Below are positions 15,426 through 22,346 of a stretch of DNA of 46,927 bases, piece by piece. Numbering within the stretch: the first letter of the stretch is position 1; every line of letters begins with the position of its first letter. The notes under the pieces were generated by a model that searched no databases, had not been told where the DNA came from, and saw nothing but the letters and a program-made list of their open reading frames with translations. Origin of the DNA: Methyloceanibacter sp. GTDB lineage: Bacteria; Pseudomonadota; Alphaproteobacteria; Rhizobiales; Methyloligellaceae. The position numbers were made by a program, and so were the translations under genes. The DNA lies in the NCBI GenBank assembly GCA_018067145.1, contig JAGPVD010000009.1, positions 1 through 46,927 on the forward strand, written 5' to 3'.

Positions 15426-16073
15426 ATGAAGATCAGGGCCATCGTCCTATTCAGTGCCGCGCTGCTGTTCGGTGCCTTAAGCGTTGTCGGAATGGCGCAA
15501 GCCGGAAATGTCGGCGATCCGTCGTCGCTCAAAGAGAAGGCGCCAGCCACCTATAAGGCGAAGTTCGACACCAGCAAGGGCACCTTCGTCATCGAGGTGC
15601 ATCGCGCCTGGGCGCCCAACGGCGCCGATCGTTTCTACAATTTGGTGAAAAGCGGCTACTACAACGACGTGCGCTTCTTCCGCGTGATCAAGGGTTTCAT
15701 GGTGCAGTTCGGCATCAGTGGCAATCCAGACCTCAACGCCGTGTGGCGTGAGGCGCGAATCCCCGACGATGATGTGACTGAGAGCAATCAGCGTGGCTAT
15801 GTGAGCTTCGCCACCGGCGGGCCCAACACCCGCACCACCCAGGTGTTCATCAATTTCGGCAACAACTCCGGGCTGGACGGGCAGGGCTTCTCGCCGTTCG
15901 GCCAGGTCGTATCGGGCATGAATGTTGTCGATGCGCTTTACGGTGGCTATGGCGAAGGCGCACCGCGTGGCAACGGCCCCGACCAGGGACGCCTTCAGGG
16001 GCGAGGCAATGCCTATCTTAATGCCGACTTCCCCAAGCTCGATTACATCAAGAAGGCCACGATCGAGCAGTAG
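15426..16073 (+). CDS. periplasmic cyclophilin-type peptidyl-prolyl isomerase
   Basis: Cyclophilins speed cis-trans isomerisation of proline bonds during folding. This 215-residue protein starts with a signal peptide (MKIRAIVLFSAALLFGALSV to AQA), so it acts in the periplasm. The core has FYNLVKSGYYNDVRFFRVIK, FMVQFG, and QVFINFGNN, with the catalytic-site R in FFRVI and the F-x-Q-F-G substrate site. An AGGAG ribosome-binding site precedes the ATG. A second cyclophilin without a signal peptide follows 29 bases later, so the two form a compartment pair, likely in one operon. Confidence 0.93.
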   Translation: MKIRAIVLFSAALLFGALSVVGMAQAGNVGDPSSLKEKAPATYKAKFDTSKGTFVIEVHRAWAPNGADRFYNLVKSGYYNDVRFFRVIKGFMVQFGISGNPDLNAVWREARIPDDDVTESNQRGYVSFATGGPNTRTTQVFINFGNNSGLDGQGFSPFGQVVSGMNVVDALYGGYGEGAPRGNGPDQGRLQGRGNAYLNADFPKLDYIKKATIEQ

Positions 16074-16102
16074 CAACCGACAACAGACATTAGGAGGCCC
16101 AA

Positions 16103-16567
16103 ATGGCGGCAACCCCAGAAGACACGCTCATCCTCGAGACGAGCAAAGGCAATGTCGTGATTGAATTGCGTCCCGACCTCGCACCCAATCACGTGGCTCG
16201 TATCAAAGAGCTAGCCCGTCAGGGCTTCTACGACGGCGTGCCGTTTCATCGCGTGATTGACGGCTTCATGGCCCAGACCGGCGATCCGACTGGCACCGGC
16301 ACAGGCGGCTCCGGCCAGAAGCTTGCCGCTGAGTTCAACGCCGAACCGCATGTCAGAGGCATATGCTCCATGGCCCGGGCGCAGTCGCCGGACTCCGCCG
16401 ACAGCCAGTTCTTCATCGTGTTCGACGATGCAAGCTTCCTTGACCGGAAATACACGGTCTGGGGCCGCGTGATCGAAGGCATGGAGAATATCGACCAGAT
16501 TAACAAGGGCGAGCCGCCGGCAAGCCCGGACGCGATCGTTTCGGCGAAGATCGCCGCCGACGCGTAA
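16103..16567 (+). CDS. ppiB: cytoplasmic cyclophilin-type peptidyl-prolyl isomerase
   Basis: This is the 154-residue cytoplasmic partner of the preceding gene. It lacks a signal peptide and starts MAATPEDTLILETSKGNVVI. The family core is complete: FYDGVPFHRVIDGFMAQTGD, MARAQSPDSADSQFFIVF and WGRVIEGMENID. The catalytic Arg is in FHRVI and the substrate-site Q and F are in GFMAQ and SQFFI. AGGAGG precedes the ATG. The adjacent pair of exported and cytoplasmic cyclophilins between coaD and queA is common in this bacterial order. Confidence 0.93.
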   Translation: MAATPEDTLILETSKGNVVIELRPDLAPNHVARIKELARQGFYDGVPFHRVIDGFMAQTGDPTGTGTGGSGQKLAAEFNAEPHVRGICSMARAQSPDSADSQFFIVFDDASFLDRKYTVWGRVIEGMENIDQINKGEPPASPDAIVSAKIAADA

Positions 16568-16597
16568 GGCCTAAGGGCTAACAGAAGGTGGTATGCC

Positions 16598-17053
16598 ATG
16601 TCGGTTCAGGCCGTTCTATTCACGCTTGTTGCGCTCATCGCCGGTGGCATGATCGCCCTGCAGGCCCCCATCAATGCCGAGGCTGCAGGACGTCTCGGCA
16701 ATCCTCTCGCCGCCGCGACCATGTCGTTCTGCGTTGGCACGATTGCGCTCGTGGTGTTGATGGCGCTGTTCGCGCGACACAACACCGATCTCGGCGCGTT
16801 GAAGTCGATGCCCCTCTATATGCTTCTTGGGGGTGGCTTGCTCGGCGTGATCTACGTCACGGTCAATCTGATGTTGGCCCCGAGGATCGGCATCGCGGCG
16901 GTCATGGCGCTTGGTATCGCCGGGCAGCTGTTCGCCGCGCTTTTGATCGACCGCCTTGGGCTGTTCGATTTGCTGGAGCGAGAGCTTAGCGTCGGCCGGG
17001 TCGGGGGCGCCGTGCTGGTGTTGGTCGGCGCCCTTATGGTGCGGCTCTTCTAG
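16598..17053 (+). CDS. DMT superfamily YdcZ-like membrane protein
   Basis: The 151-residue product has five predicted membrane segments and matches the YdcZ/DUF606 branch of the drug/metabolite transporter superfamily. Evidence is the opening helix with [19 protein letters not shown], the central [18 protein letters not shown] and [20 protein letters not shown]. Single-unit members are half the length of two-repeat transporters and are thought to work as dimers. The substrate is unknown. AGAAGGTGG lies ahead of the ATG. It sits between ppiB and queA on the same strand, so it may be cotranscribed with them. Confidence 0.85.
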
Positions 17054-17067
17054 CCGTCATTCGTCCT

Positions 17068-18153
17068 TTGCGTACTGACCTTTTCGATTTTGATCTCCCC
17101 GAGGCACTCATCGCGTTGCGCCCAGCGAAGCCGCGCGACACGGCGCGGCTTCTGGTCGTCAGTGGAGATGTGAGCGAAGGGCTTGCCGATGAAGTCATGA
17201 CGGATTTGCCTGCGCTGCTGCAGCCGGGTGATGCACTGGTGTTCAATGACACACGGGTGATCCCCGCCGCCCTGAAAGGTAACCGAACAAGGGGCGAGGT
17301 GTCGGCACAAGTGTCCGTCACGCTGGCCGAGCGGCTCGACGATGCGCGTTGGCAAGTCCTGGCGCGGCCCGCCAAGCGCCTCGAAGTGGATGATCGTATT
17401 AAATTTGGAGATGGCGGAAATGTCTGTGGCCTTGGCGGCCTTGAGGCGACAGTCGAGGCCAAGGGCACGGAAGGCCAAGTGACGCTGGCGTTCGACCTTA
17501 GCGGTCCCGCGCTACATGACGCCATCGAGGCGCTGGGTGCTATGCCGCTGCCGCCCTATATTGCTGCGCGGCGTCCCGCAGACCAACAGGATCGCAGCGA
17601 CTACCAAACAATGTTTGCACGCGAGGAGGGGGCGGTGGCAGCGCCGACTGCGGGCCTGCACTTCACCGATGCGCTGATGCAGGCACTCGATGCGCGCGGC
17701 GTGTCTCGGCATTTCGTGACGCTGCATGTGGGCCCCGGCACGTTTCTTCCCGTGCGTGTCGATGAGACGGACGGGCACAAGATGCACGCCGAGTATGGCG
17801 TGATCAGTGCGGACGTGGCGGACGCTCTGAACGCCGTGAAGGCCAACGGCGGCCGCATCGTTGCGGTGGGAACGACCTCGCTTCGCCTCATTGAAAGTGC
17901 AGCGGACGAGGACGGAACGCTAAGAACTTTTACGGGCGAGACCGACATCTTCATCACGCCAGGTTATTGTTTCCGTTTCATCGATCGGCTGTTGACCAAT
18001 TTCCATCTGCCGCGCTCCACCTTGTTCATGCTTGTCGCCGCCTTCTCAGGACTAGAAACCATGAAGCGCGCTTATGCCCATGCCGTTGAGGACCATTACC
18101 GGTTCTATTCCTATGGCGACGCCTGCCTGCTCAGCCCAGCGGACTGCGCATGA
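17068..18153 (+). CDS. queA: tRNA preQ1(34) S-adenosylmethionine ribosyltransferase-isomerase
   Basis: QueA moves the ribosyl part of S-adenosylmethionine onto preQ1 in tRNA position 34, giving epoxyqueuosine. The 361-residue product starts at TTG ([20 protein letters not shown]), only 14 bases after the previous gene. Hallmarks are [46 protein letters not shown] and [17 protein letters not shown]. Nothing looks damaged. Its stop overlaps the tgt start by four bases (ATGA), so the two enzymes of the pathway are translationally coupled, although Tgt acts before QueA. Confidence 0.97.
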
Positions 18154-19286
18154 TCAAAGCGTTTTCATTCGCGCTCACGGCGCAAGATGGGCGCGCACGT
18201 ACGGGCGCCATATCGACGCCGCGCGGGGAAATTCGTACGCCGGCGTTCATGCCGGTGGGCACCGGGGCCACCGTCAAGGCAATGTTCCCCGAGGACGTCG
18301 CGGCGACCGGTGCCGACATCCTTCTCGGCAATACCTATCATCTGATGCTCCGTCCCGGCGCCGAACGCGTCGCCAAGCTCGGCGGCTTGCACAAATTCAT
18401 GCATTGGGACCGGCCCATCCTCACTGATAGCGGCGGCTTTCAAGTCATGTCGCTGGCCAAGCTTCGGCGCATCACCGAGGAAGGCGTCACGTTCCAGTCC
18501 CATATCGACGGAACCAAAATTAAGCTGACGCCGGAGCGGGCCATCGAAATACAATGCCTGCTCGGTTCAGACATTCAGATGGTGCTGGATGAATGCACGC
18601 CGTTCCCGGCGACGCGCGAAGAGGCGAAAGCGTCGCTCGATCTGTCCATGCGCTGGGCCGAACGGTCTAAGGCCGCGTTCACTGACATGAGTGCGCCTGG
18701 CCAAGCGTTGTTCGGCATCGTCCAGGGCAGCGTCTATCCCGATTTGCGCGAGATGAGCGCGCGCGGGCTGATCGAGATTGGCTTTCCAGGTTATGCTGTC
18801 GGCGGGCTCGCCGTGGGGGAGGGGCAAGAGGCGATGTTCGAGGTGGTCGAGCTGACCACCGATTTTCTACCCGAGGACCGGCCACGTTATTTGATGGGTG
18901 TCGGCACGCCACAAGACATGTTGGGCGCCATTGCGCGCGGCATCGATATGTTCGATTGCGTGATGCCCACGCGCTCTGGGCGCCACTGCCAAGCCTTTAC
19001 TTGGGGCGGCAAACTGAACCTACGCAACGCCCGCTTCGCCGAAGACATGAGCCCGCTGGACGCGGAGAGCAAATGCCCGGCCGCCCAGTATGAGCGTGCC
19101 TATCTGCATCATCTGGTGAAGTCAGGCGAGGCGCTGGGCTCCATGTTGCTAACCTACGCCAATGTCCAATTCTACCAAGAGCTCATGGGCCGAGCCCGCG
19201 CGGCCATCGCGCAAGGTACGTTCGCCGCCTTCGCCGAGGATGTGTGCCGCCGCTATGAGACGACGGGCGAGGAAGAGGCGGACTAA
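18150..19286 (+). CDS. tgt: queuine tRNA-guanine transglycosylase with degenerate zinc site
   Basis: Tgt swaps guanine 34 of GUN tRNAs for preQ1. The 378-residue product keeps the catalytic core: Asp93 in DSGGFQVMS and Asp269 in [14 protein letters not shown]. It also has [11 protein letters not shown] and GGLAVGEG. The usual zinc site is CxCxxC plus a His in a THN-type motif (Cys318, Cys320, Cys323 and His349 in Zymomonas). Here the segment reads [17 protein letters not shown], so the first Cys is Ser307, only Cys309 remains, and the third Cys is gone with a one-residue deletion. The His is Ala337 ([11 protein letters not shown]). The fold may be held without zinc, or this enzyme may be weakened. 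Confidence 0.95.
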
Positions 19287-19410: not shown

Positions 19411-20352
19411 CTAGACCGGGTCCACGTCGGACGCTGGCCCACCTTTGGCTCCGCCCAAACTCTTCCGCTCCCGCGCCAGCAGATAGAGGCCAGCCACAAT
19501 GACGATGGCGCCGCCGCCCAATGTCCAGGCGGTCGGGATGTCGCCGAAGACGAAATATCCCGCGAACGACATCCAGATGAGGCCGAGATACATGTAAGGC
19601 GCGAGCACTGGGGCCGGCGCAGCGCGGTGGGCCAGGATCAGCAGCCAGTGCCCGAGCCCGCCCCAAAAGCCGAGGCCTGCGAATAGCACCCACAGCCACC
19701 ACTCTTGTGGCCACTGCCAGGCCGCCAAGCCAAACGGCGTCATCACCAGCACGCCGACGAGCGGCGTATAGGTCTGCGTCACCGCTGGCGGATCGAAGGC
19801 GGCGAGATAGCGCGTGGAAATATTGTAGAGCGCGAAGCCGAGCGTCGCGCCGAGCACCAGCAGCATGGCCCAATGAAATGAGCCGATGCCGGGATGCATG
19901 ACCACCAGCACGCCAACGAATCCTGCGGCGATGGCCAACACCCGATGCCAGCCAACCCACTCCCCAAGAAGTGGCCCGGCCAACGCGGCGACAATCAGCG
20001 GTGTCAGAAAGAAGATCGTGACGTTCTGATCGAGCTGCAGATATTTGAGCGCGATGAAGTTGAGCAATGTGGTCGCGATCATGAAGCAGGAGCGCACCAC
20101 CTGGATCATCGGCTTGGCCGAGCGCAGCGATGGCCGGAACGCGAATGGCCAAAGCACGACGGCGCTGAACAACACATGCGTGGCGAAGCGGAGCCACGTC
20201 ACCTGCGCCACAGGGATGTTCGTCTCATCCACCAGATATTTCGCCGTGGCGTCGAGCGCAGCGAAGCAGACCGATGCCAGGACCATCAGGCCGATGGCAA
20301 TCAGTCTGTGGCGTGCATCGGAGGCTTTAGTGGTGGCGGGCTTAAGTGTCAT
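19411..20352 (-). CDS. EamA/DMT family transporter
   Basis: The 313-residue product has ten membrane helices in two EamA repeats. The first repeat shows LASVCFAALDATAKYLV and LLNFIALKYLQLDQNVTIFF, and ends with GVLVVMHPG. The second ends with GGGAIVIVAGLYLLARE. Members export or import small metabolites, and the substrate cannot be read from sequence. It is convergent with tgt across the REP-like element and divergent from the DHFR-like gene, with a promoter region of fewer than 70 bases between them. Confidence 0.9.
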   Translation of the reverse strand: MTLKPATTKASDARHRLIAIGLMVLASVCFAALDATAKYLVDETNIPVAQVTWLRFATHVLFSAVVLWPFAFRPSLRSAKPMIQVVRSCFMIATTLLNFIALKYLQLDQNVTIFFLTPLIVAALAGPLLGEWVGWHRVLAIAAGFVGVLVVMHPGIGSFHWAMLLVLGATLGFALYNISTRYLAAFDPPAVTQTYTPLVGVLVMTPFGLAAWQWPQEWWLWVLFAGLGFWGGLGHWLLILAHRAAPAPVLAPYMYLGLIWMSFAGYFVFGDIPTAWTLGGGAIVIVAGLYLLARERKSLGGAKGGPASDVDPV

Positions 20353-20417
20353 TCGCCTATGTGCACCAATCTTTTCCTCGACGCTATCCGTCGATAAAAG
20401 GAAGGGGCGATTTCTAT

Positions 20418-20837
20418 GTGGAGGACAGTGTGGCTGACATTCGCGCCATTTGCGCCATAGGCCTGAGAGGGCAATTGGGACTGAACGGCCAGCTCCCTTG
20501 GGAAGGGAACAAGGACCGGGAGTTTGTCGCTGACGTCGCGCGATTCTTCGACGTGACGCGTGGTCACGTCATCATCGCTGGGCCGGCGACGAGCGCGTCC
20601 TTCCCGGCATTCGTCCTGAAGGACCGCACCATCTGCGAGATTCGCTCTGACGATGCCCCGGAAGAGGTACTGGCCCGGTTTCCCAACCGCGTGGTCTATG
20701 TGGGCGGTGGCCCGCCAGTCTGGGACGTCTACGCGCCCTATATCCGCCATTGGGACATCAACAGGCTGCCTTATGACGGACACGCGGACCGTTGGTTCAA
20801 TCCGGCTTGGCTGGTGGCATCAGTCAATGGCGCATGA
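20418..20837 (+). CDS. short dihydrofolate reductase-like protein
   Basis: Dihydrofolate reductase makes tetrahydrofolate with NADPH. This protein shows the family start (IRAICAIGLRGQLGLNGQLPW), a HVIIAGPATS segment in the place of the usual GRxTWES, and the NADPH loop VVYVGGGPPVWDVY. It has only about 139 residues, against 160 or so for FolA, and the C-terminal strands look shortened. The acidic active-site residue after LPW is not in its usual setting (EGNKDREF). A GTG at 20418 follows AAGGAAGGGG at about 10 bases; a GTG at 20430 is an alternative. It could be a true divergent reductase or a paralogue with another substrate. thyA is not adjacent. Confidence 0.7.
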   Translation: MEDSVADIRAICAIGLRGQLGLNGQLPWEGNKDREFVADVARFFDVTRGHVIIAGPATSASFPAFVLKDRTICEIRSDDAPEEVLARFPNRVVYVGGGPPVWDVYAPYIRHWDINRLPYDGHADRWFNPAWLVASVNGA

Positions 20838-21592: not shown

Positions 21593-21814
21593 GATTGAGT
21601 CCCCCGTTTCTTTCTGTCGAATCTGTCCCTGACTATATCCACTTCGCGGGAAAAAGCTGTGACGTTTGGGCCACAGTTATGACCTAAAAAGGCACAAGGG
21701 ACCGATTTTGCCGACTTCCTGCAAAAAGTACGTTTTTTGGCTTCAGGTCTCGTCTGCGAGGCTTCCGAGCCAAGTGGCAACGGTCGTCTCAAAGACCTAA
21801 GGACTTGATTAATA

Positions 21815-21890
21815 TGGTGAGCCCGCCGGGACTCGAACCCGGGACCCTCTGATTAAAAGTCAGATGCTCTACCAGCTGAGCTACAGGCTC
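21815..21890 (-). tRNA. tRNA-Lys (anticodon UUU)
   Basis: The 76-base gene folds into a full cloverleaf. The acceptor arm GAGCCTG pairs with CGGGCTC, the anticodon stem is TCTGA/TCAGA around CTTTTAA (anticodon TTT), and the T arm is CCGGG-TTCGAGT-CCCGG. The discriminator is A, and the 3' CCA is encoded. It stands alone, not in a tRNA cluster. Confidence 0.97.
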
Positions 21891-22070
21891 CCCACGGCGT
21901 CCATATGGGCCGGTAGCCTCGGGCAGGTCAACAAAACTTGGGCCTACGAGCGCGGGCCCATTGCCGCGTCCTTCACTTTCCGGGGCGTAAGCCCCAGAAA
22001 TAGGCCGTCGCGCTTCGCTTACGCATTCAGTATTGTCGTGCCCGATCCGAGGAATGGGGCGGGGGAAGTG

Positions 22071-22346
22071 ATGACGGACAAGGGCACAAAGGGGCATCTC
22101 GCGCGCTATTGGCCGCGATTCTTGCTCATCATCCCGTTCCTGCTCGTGATCTGGGTGCCGTTCTATAACCGGGTCGAGCCGGTCCTAGCCAATATTCCCT
22201 TCTTTTATTGGTACCAGCTGGCCGCGATTCTCATCGGCGCGGCCGTGGCGATCGCCGTCTACCTGCTGGAGGTGAGAATTGAGGGGACGGATTCAGGCGA
22301 CCCCGCCGACACCGATAGCTCAGGGACGCCGGGGGACATGCTTTGA
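22071..22346 (+). CDS. DUF3311 family small membrane protein
   Basis: The 91-residue product has two membrane helices (FLLIIPFLLVIWVPFYNR and FYWYQLAAILIGAAVAIAVY) with the family PFFYWYQL-type motif between them. DUF3311 proteins are usually encoded directly before a sodium:solute symporter and are thought to be its small accessory subunit. That is the case here: the next gene starts inside the last codons of this one. A GGGGGAAG ribosome-binding site precedes the ATG. A GTG one codon earlier is an alternative. Confidence 0.85.
   Translation: MTDKGTKGHLARYWPRFLLIIPFLLVIWVPFYNRVEPVLANIPFFYWYQLAAILIGAAVAIAVYLLEVRIEGTDSGDPADTDSSGTPGDML

Follow-up and report, generated by a model that had tools for sequence, protein, structure and literature searches.

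Bacterial tRNA-guanine transglycosylase (TGT, or Tgt) is described as a zinc-requiring enzyme. The consulted section of PMC9508795 states that TGT activity needs zinc and includes among its references Chong 1995, on the E. coli enzyme, and PMC6165067 names the zinc domain as a hallmark of TGT and the zinc site as part of the tRNA-binding scaffold. An aromatic cluster of F92, W326, Y330 and H333 is given as a hot spot of the TGT dimer interface in an excerpt of PMC5395182. Genetic data exist for Sinorhizobium meliloti 1021. According to the sections of PMC3568095 consulted, the tgt mutant shows no HeLa deformation in low-serum medium and has a profound nitrogen-fixation defect, preQ1 rescues queC and queF mutants on HeLa cells but not the tgt mutant, and a queA mutant has, surprisingly to the authors, little or no symbiotic defect. 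Another tRNA enzyme, bacterial glutamyl-tRNA synthetase (GluRS), lacks its zinc motif in many bacteria, and the zinc-free GluRS domain of Burkholderia thailandensis functions inside the E. coli enzyme, as reported in PMC4381286; GluRS is unrelated to Tgt and is a precedent only for dispensable zinc in a tRNA enzyme.

The window studied here is the whole analysed stretch of 46,927 nucleotides from a Methyloceanibacter sp. draft assembly (GCA_018067145.1, contig JAGPVD010000009.1). It carries a queA-tgt pair with the following features.

17068 to 18153, + strand: queA, overlapping tgt by 4 bases (open reading frame; NF001140 463 bits and TIGR00113 371 bits, both above cut-off)
18150 to 19286, + strand: tgt, tRNA-guanine(34) transglycosylase, 378 aa, retaining one of four zinc ligands (TIGR00430, PF01702, AlphaFold model)
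18426 to 18428, + strand: Asp93, equivalent to catalytic Asp102 of Zymomonas (alignment)
18954 to 18956, + strand: Asp269, equivalent to catalytic Asp280 of Zymomonas (alignment)
19068 to 19085, + strand: former CxCxxC motif, now S307-K-C309-P-A-A312 (alignment)
19086 to 19091, + strand: Gln313-Tyr314, with one residue missing in between relative to most aligned Tgts (alignment; common to the genus and to genus g3)
19158 to 19160, + strand: Ala337, where the ligand His stands (Zymomonas His349; alignment)

The tgt frame of 378 codons is intact, and its product matched TIGR00430 over its full length (residues 7-371; 483 bits against a cut-off of 306.75) and PF01702 with 518.2 bits (cut-off 26.3). 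An AlphaFold model from a 48-row alignment, built with 47 relatives, had a mean pLDDT of 92.0 overall and of 96-97 at the former zinc site (residues 301-320), values that cannot establish the stability of a metal-free fold. The predicted TIM barrel with its C-terminal sub-domain superimposed on Zymomonas mobilis TGT structures 1pud and 1q2r with Z scores of 56.3 and 56.6 and an rmsd of 1.2 Å over 369 and 372 residues, respectively. Profile, catalytic and pocket residues, predicted fold and dimer cluster are those of a bacterial tRNA-guanine(34) transglycosylase; in place of the CxCxxC and His of the canonical zinc-bound enzyme the protein reads S-C-A + A, with one of four ligands left. Judged by its sequence, the window Tgt is a bacterial Tgt variant that lacks the defining zinc site. 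Two further frames in the window drew attention. A 163-aa frame at 20346-20837 (+) resembles dihydrofolate reductase (23.6 bits, just below the Pfam cut-off of 25), and a 102-aa frame containing PVAQLVEHLTFNQRVPGSSPGG at 21789-22097 (-) covers a tRNA-Lys gene (21815-21890, -) and looks like translated tRNA rather than a protein gene.

Zymomonas TGT, the canonical zinc-bound form, shares the full-length fold and 63% identity with the window Tgt, and both have the catalytic Asp pair, the listed preQ1-pocket residues and the aromatic dimer cluster. Residue equivalences were taken from an alignment with Zymomonas TGT and agree with the names H319C, Y330F and H333F in PDB titles. Among the active-site positions compared, some of them presumed members of the preQ1 pocket, the window Tgt retains D93, D269, D147, C149, Q192, G219, L220, A221, Y247 and M249, and the sole change is Phe97 for Zymomonas Tyr106. 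The dimer cluster F92/W326/Y330/H333 corresponds to F83/Y314/Y318/H321, identical at three of four positions, with Tyr314 in place of Trp326. We take the Zymomonas zinc ligands to be C318, C320, C323 and H349. At the ligand positions the window Tgt has Ser307 (19068-19070), Cys309 (19074-19076), Ala312 and Ala337 (19158-19160), so that C318, C323 and H349 face S307, A312 and A337, and the window protein is one residue shorter at K325. The initial annotation had placed Ser307, Cys309, Ala337 and catalytic Asp93 and Asp269 correctly in an intact gene coupled to queA. Its count of three lost ligands also stands; its view that the third Cys was deleted does not, since alignment with relatives, which read S-x-C-P-A-A-R-D-Y-S-RAY, puts Ala312 at that position and the one-residue deletion just after it, between Gln313 and Tyr314.

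Sequencing error can be rejected as the source of these changes because the S-C-A + A state recurs, together with the shorter loop, in all 14 readable same-genus sequences and in both of genus g3. Brevundimonas sp. SH203 (L240) has independently shortened the same loop by one residue and has ligand positions I-G-S + H.

Nor is the change confined to the window, for zinc-site loss is order-wide. All four ligands were present in 167 of 275 Tgt sequences read and in none of the 56 readable Tgts of the window's order, counting its own, genus, family and order kin. These 56 comprise 54 sequences from 61 genomes (56 of them matching) and two from the same-class set; the row of G016, whose site is truncated or out of frame, and the fragments of G027, which end before it, lie outside the count. 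We call the order Hyphomicrobiales because it groups with named Pleomorphomonas, Mesorhizobium and Bartonella rows in a 97-row tree. Among the best 80 named loci (79 readable), the full set occurred in 0/11 Hyphomicrobiales, 0/7 Caulobacterales, 0/1 Hyphomonadales and 0/1 Parvularculales; in 31/31 Rhodobacterales, 8/11 Sphingomonadales and 3/3 Rhodospirillales; in the single representatives of Rickettsiales, Puniceispirillales and Acetobacterales; and in 9/11 loci without an order name. Same-class rows had all four ligands in 84 of 107 cases (106 of 171 matching genomes fetched, one giving two rows). For plasmid-collection records, of which 13 of 70 matches were fetched, the figure was 9/13, the exceptions being two Sinorhizobium, a Shinella and a Methylobacterium. 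Outside Alphaproteobacteria every one of 26 sampled Tgts had the full set: 20 same-phylum genomes (20 of 66 matching ones fetched, with eight order members new in that set left out) plus E. coli, Xanthomonas, Fusobacterium, Paenibacillus, Collinsella and Latilactobacillus. Magnetococcus, classed under Alphaproteobacteria, also keeps all four. The named and other sets may contain the same species twice, and four rows were dropped (L056 for its frame; L250, L057 and L017 because the site was cut). A scan of viral contigs found no relative. One same-phylum tgt (G291 contig 1, 689587-690659) was matched in two overlapping parts, with a TAA in frame in the second, and is either frameshifted or broken. 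The caution that a whole clade might share the change was well placed, and the clade exceeds one order.

To trace the history, ligand states were mapped on trees of Hyphomicrobiales homologues and other Tgts. In a 56-row tree computed without the ligand region, 26 main-clade rows, none with a full site, lay on one side of a branch supported by bootstrap 92 and SH-aLRT 96 and found in 90% of 200 bootstrap trees. That side comprised Hyphomicrobiales, Caulobacterales, Hyphomonadales, Parvularculales and near relatives. Its 56 rows were chosen after the 97-row tree had been seen, and some rows lacking the full site were omitted, including the long-branch L138, L148, L153 and L164 and also L150/L151. 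Adding 22 rows, of which 16 lack a complete site, gave a 78-row tree in which 37 rows lacking the full site, L058 and L079 included, grouped together with no full-site row inside (85/87, the bootstrap not settled). The quick 97-row tree, which includes very long rows, left the main clade in an unresolved fork with mostly full-site rows, and support for a single old loss is therefore only moderate. With four non-alphaproteobacterial rows as the outgroup, the change reads as a loss. Parsimony required five changes on 56 rows (two forced by well-supported branches, quick version), nine on 78 rows (five forced), 10 on 97 rows (four forced) and 15-16 on 246 rows.

The simplest account, with moderate support, is a single loss of the first and third Cys in a common ancestor of Hyphomicrobiales, Caulobacterales, Hyphomonadales and Parvularculales. 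The trees support to a similar, moderate degree the later disappearance, in the window's line, of the ligand His and of a loop residue as well. Separate losses in Erythrobacter, nested in full-site Sphingomonadales, and in L080/L106 and L126/L135 are better supported than the single old loss, and further separate losses are likely. Counts of states suggest an order of events. In 27 sequences (22 retaining the second Cys, five not) the first and third Cys were missing and His remained; 76 sequences lacked all three of these, and none of the 275 Tgts read had kept the first and third Cys and lost His. The second-ligand Cys was kept in 93 of 108 sequences missing at least one ligand. Caulobacter segnis, Phenylobacterium and Ponticaulis Tgts have, like the window, lost the first and third Cys and mostly kept the second; unlike the window, Caulobacterales-type Tgt and Ponticaulis keep the ligand His (typically S-C-S + H), in what looks like an intermediate stage.

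Early loss of queuosine synthesis had been offered as one explanation of the altered site. A decaying tgt, with ligand changes as early damage, would fit the disappearance of three ligands and one residue in an 82%-complete, 2.34-Mb draft genome, but we find it hardly credible. The same state is fixed in the 14 readable genus-mates, no order member has the full set, and the window matches the consensus in all columns that are filled in at least 80% of rows and at least 93% conserved. Moreover, tgt is under purifying selection: dN/dS was 0.070 against the nearest relative (dS 0.61; 0.028 over residues 285-345) and 0.105-0.157 against six further relatives, with residues 285-345 ranging from 0.028 to 0.150 across comparisons, several of the dS values being close to saturation.

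The pathway genes are present as well. A search for queC, queD, queE, queF and queG found them all in the same assembly. Contig C150 carries one cluster in the order queC (190 bits), queE (343), queD (84.0) and queF (129), of which queC, queE and queF exceed NCBIfam cut-offs and queD falls just below (84.0 versus 89.25 bits), and queG is split into two complementary pieces, each at a contig end, of which one exceeds the cut-off by itself. With these genes, queA and tgt all in place, decay of the pathway was rejected, and the proposal of early queuosine loss is not supported. A second complete tgt, which would have undercut the initial annotation, did not turn up: there was a single match in the window assembly (2.34 Mb, 82% complete) and one in each of the single-contig genus-mates G004 and G014. 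Most matching genomes of the order and same-class sets likewise had one tgt match, several had two, and some of the latter were fragments.

In 19 genomes chosen from the order, QueG exceeded the cut-off in 19, QueC in 16 and QueF in 18; G012 adds a seventeenth QueC, divided between two adjoining pieces, and the QueC matches of G033 and G044 are weak only. The QueF match of G057 (29.3 bits) resembles weak second matches elsewhere and may not be QueF. PF02592, which we take to comprise queuosine-precursor transporters of the YhhQ kind, had no match in the window genome or in any of the 10 genus-mates covered, and was matched in four of the 19 genomes. Because of this absence, the genus appears to depend on making queuosine itself. 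G033 and G044 are near-complete order members that have tgt and queG and no QueC above cut-off. In G033, QueF is absent too and PF02592 is matched, a combination that suggests queuosine-precursor salvage; G044 has QueF and no PF02592 match.

Zinc might still be bound at or near the old site through Cys309 and new ligands, candidates being His279, Cys136 and a residue contributed by the dimer mate. The frequent retention of the second-ligand Cys would suit such a rebuilt site, as would His279 (18984-18986), present in 91 of the 106 rows that lack a full site versus 7 of the 140 that have one (most full-site Tgts have Thr or Asn there), and Cys as the commonest letter at position 136 in rows without the full site (36/103). 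We nevertheless consider a rebuilt site unlikely. The His279 link ran in the same direction in only 1.7 of 8 independent pairs on average and follows one clade, and Asn or Thr persists at this position in Erythrobacter, L080/L106 and L126, which lost the site separately; the Cys/Gly/Ala class at 136 went with loss in just 2.0 of 8 pairs. Across His279, Gln143, Lys/Arg288 and the classes at 185 and 136, the averages were 1.7-2.3 of 8 pairs, so few that these positions track clades. An Asp after the loop Arg accompanied loss in 4.5 of 8 pairs and ran counter to it in 0.4 (median p 0.125). Repeated gain of this Asp beside the loop across independent losses is suggestive only, and it cannot be a general answer because the window genus has that very residue deleted.

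Evidence of function comes from a relative. The S. meliloti Tgt (strain Ak57, CP090106.1, L174) has ligand positions S-C-T + N and catalytic residues kept as in the window, to which it is 60% identical; it differs in having Asn rather than Ala for His and in retaining the loop residue. Two peptidylprolyl isomerase genes lie upstream of queA and tgt in the same order in both (15426-17053 in the window, 133-1240 in L174), with queA of CP090106.1 an unannotated 362-aa frame. In S. meliloti no annotated or apparent gene separates isomerase and queA, unlike the window, where a YdcZ-type exporter gene (16598-17053) sits between them. Genetic evidence in the consulted sections of PMC3568095 places this site-less type of Tgt downstream of preQ1 in S. 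meliloti, the sequence being that of strain Ak57, the phenotype that of strain 1021 and the evidence mutant genetics rather than tRNA analysis.

The clade's Tgt could instead have shifted to another substrate or a moonlighting role that does not need the zinc sub-domain. This would accord with the zinc site's place in the tRNA-binding scaffold of canonical TGT (PMC6165067) and with the S. meliloti queA mutant, which lacks most of the tgt mutant's symbiotic defect (PMC3568095, sections consulted); near-normal symbiosis of that mutant fits poorly with a plain queuosine role for the tgt phenotype. We regard a new role as very improbable all the same, given that the listed preQ1-pocket residues are retained, that queA adjoins and overlaps tgt, and that on HeLa cells the S. 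meliloti tgt phenotype matches those of queC and queF mutants, downstream of preQ1 (same sections of PMC3568095).

Our preferred reading, to which we assign a probability of roughly 0.84, is that the window Tgt functions with QueA in de novo queuosine synthesis and that its C-terminal zinc site was dismantled long ago. These odds and those of the clade-wide reading below were trimmed slightly because a single loss is only moderately supported and the S. meliloti queA result fits poorly. Conservation across the clade, purifying selection and the requirement for tgt in S. meliloti, whose enzyme is site-less, lend support in this sense, short of proof, to the zinc-independent variant proposed in the initial annotation. 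For the clade at large, Hyphomicrobiales, Caulobacterales and relatives have probably had a naturally zinc-free, fully active Tgt since their common ancestor. Dismantling of the site probably followed a recurrent sequence, in which the first Cys went along with the third, His followed and the second Cys usually survived; Erythrobacter and other lines have probably arrived at comparable losses separately. In the enzyme so envisaged, the small residues Ser307, Ala312 and Ala337 would fill the vacated ligand positions and the loop would pack directly on the helices, holding the loop-helix sub-domain, with the dimer contacts on it, without metal. The homodimer interface and tRNA-binding surface would thereby be retained, and base exchange at G34 through Asp93 and Asp269 would proceed as in canonical Tgt.

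A search of open-access PMC by title or abstract start found no report of a zinc-less Tgt; subscription journals were outside its scope, and such a report may be in print. Loss of the zinc site is ordinary for this window and moderately interesting as a clade-wide trait, since Tgt is described as zinc-requiring. If the reading is true, a few local changes would be enough for Tgt to do without the structural zinc it is said to require, and homology-based annotation of Tgt as a zinc protein would be wrong for this clade. The role of zinc in folding, dimerisation or tRNA binding would become testable by comparing natural full, partial and empty sites. The clade includes a model symbiont and Caulobacter, and many natural versions of Tgt are probably working without zinc.
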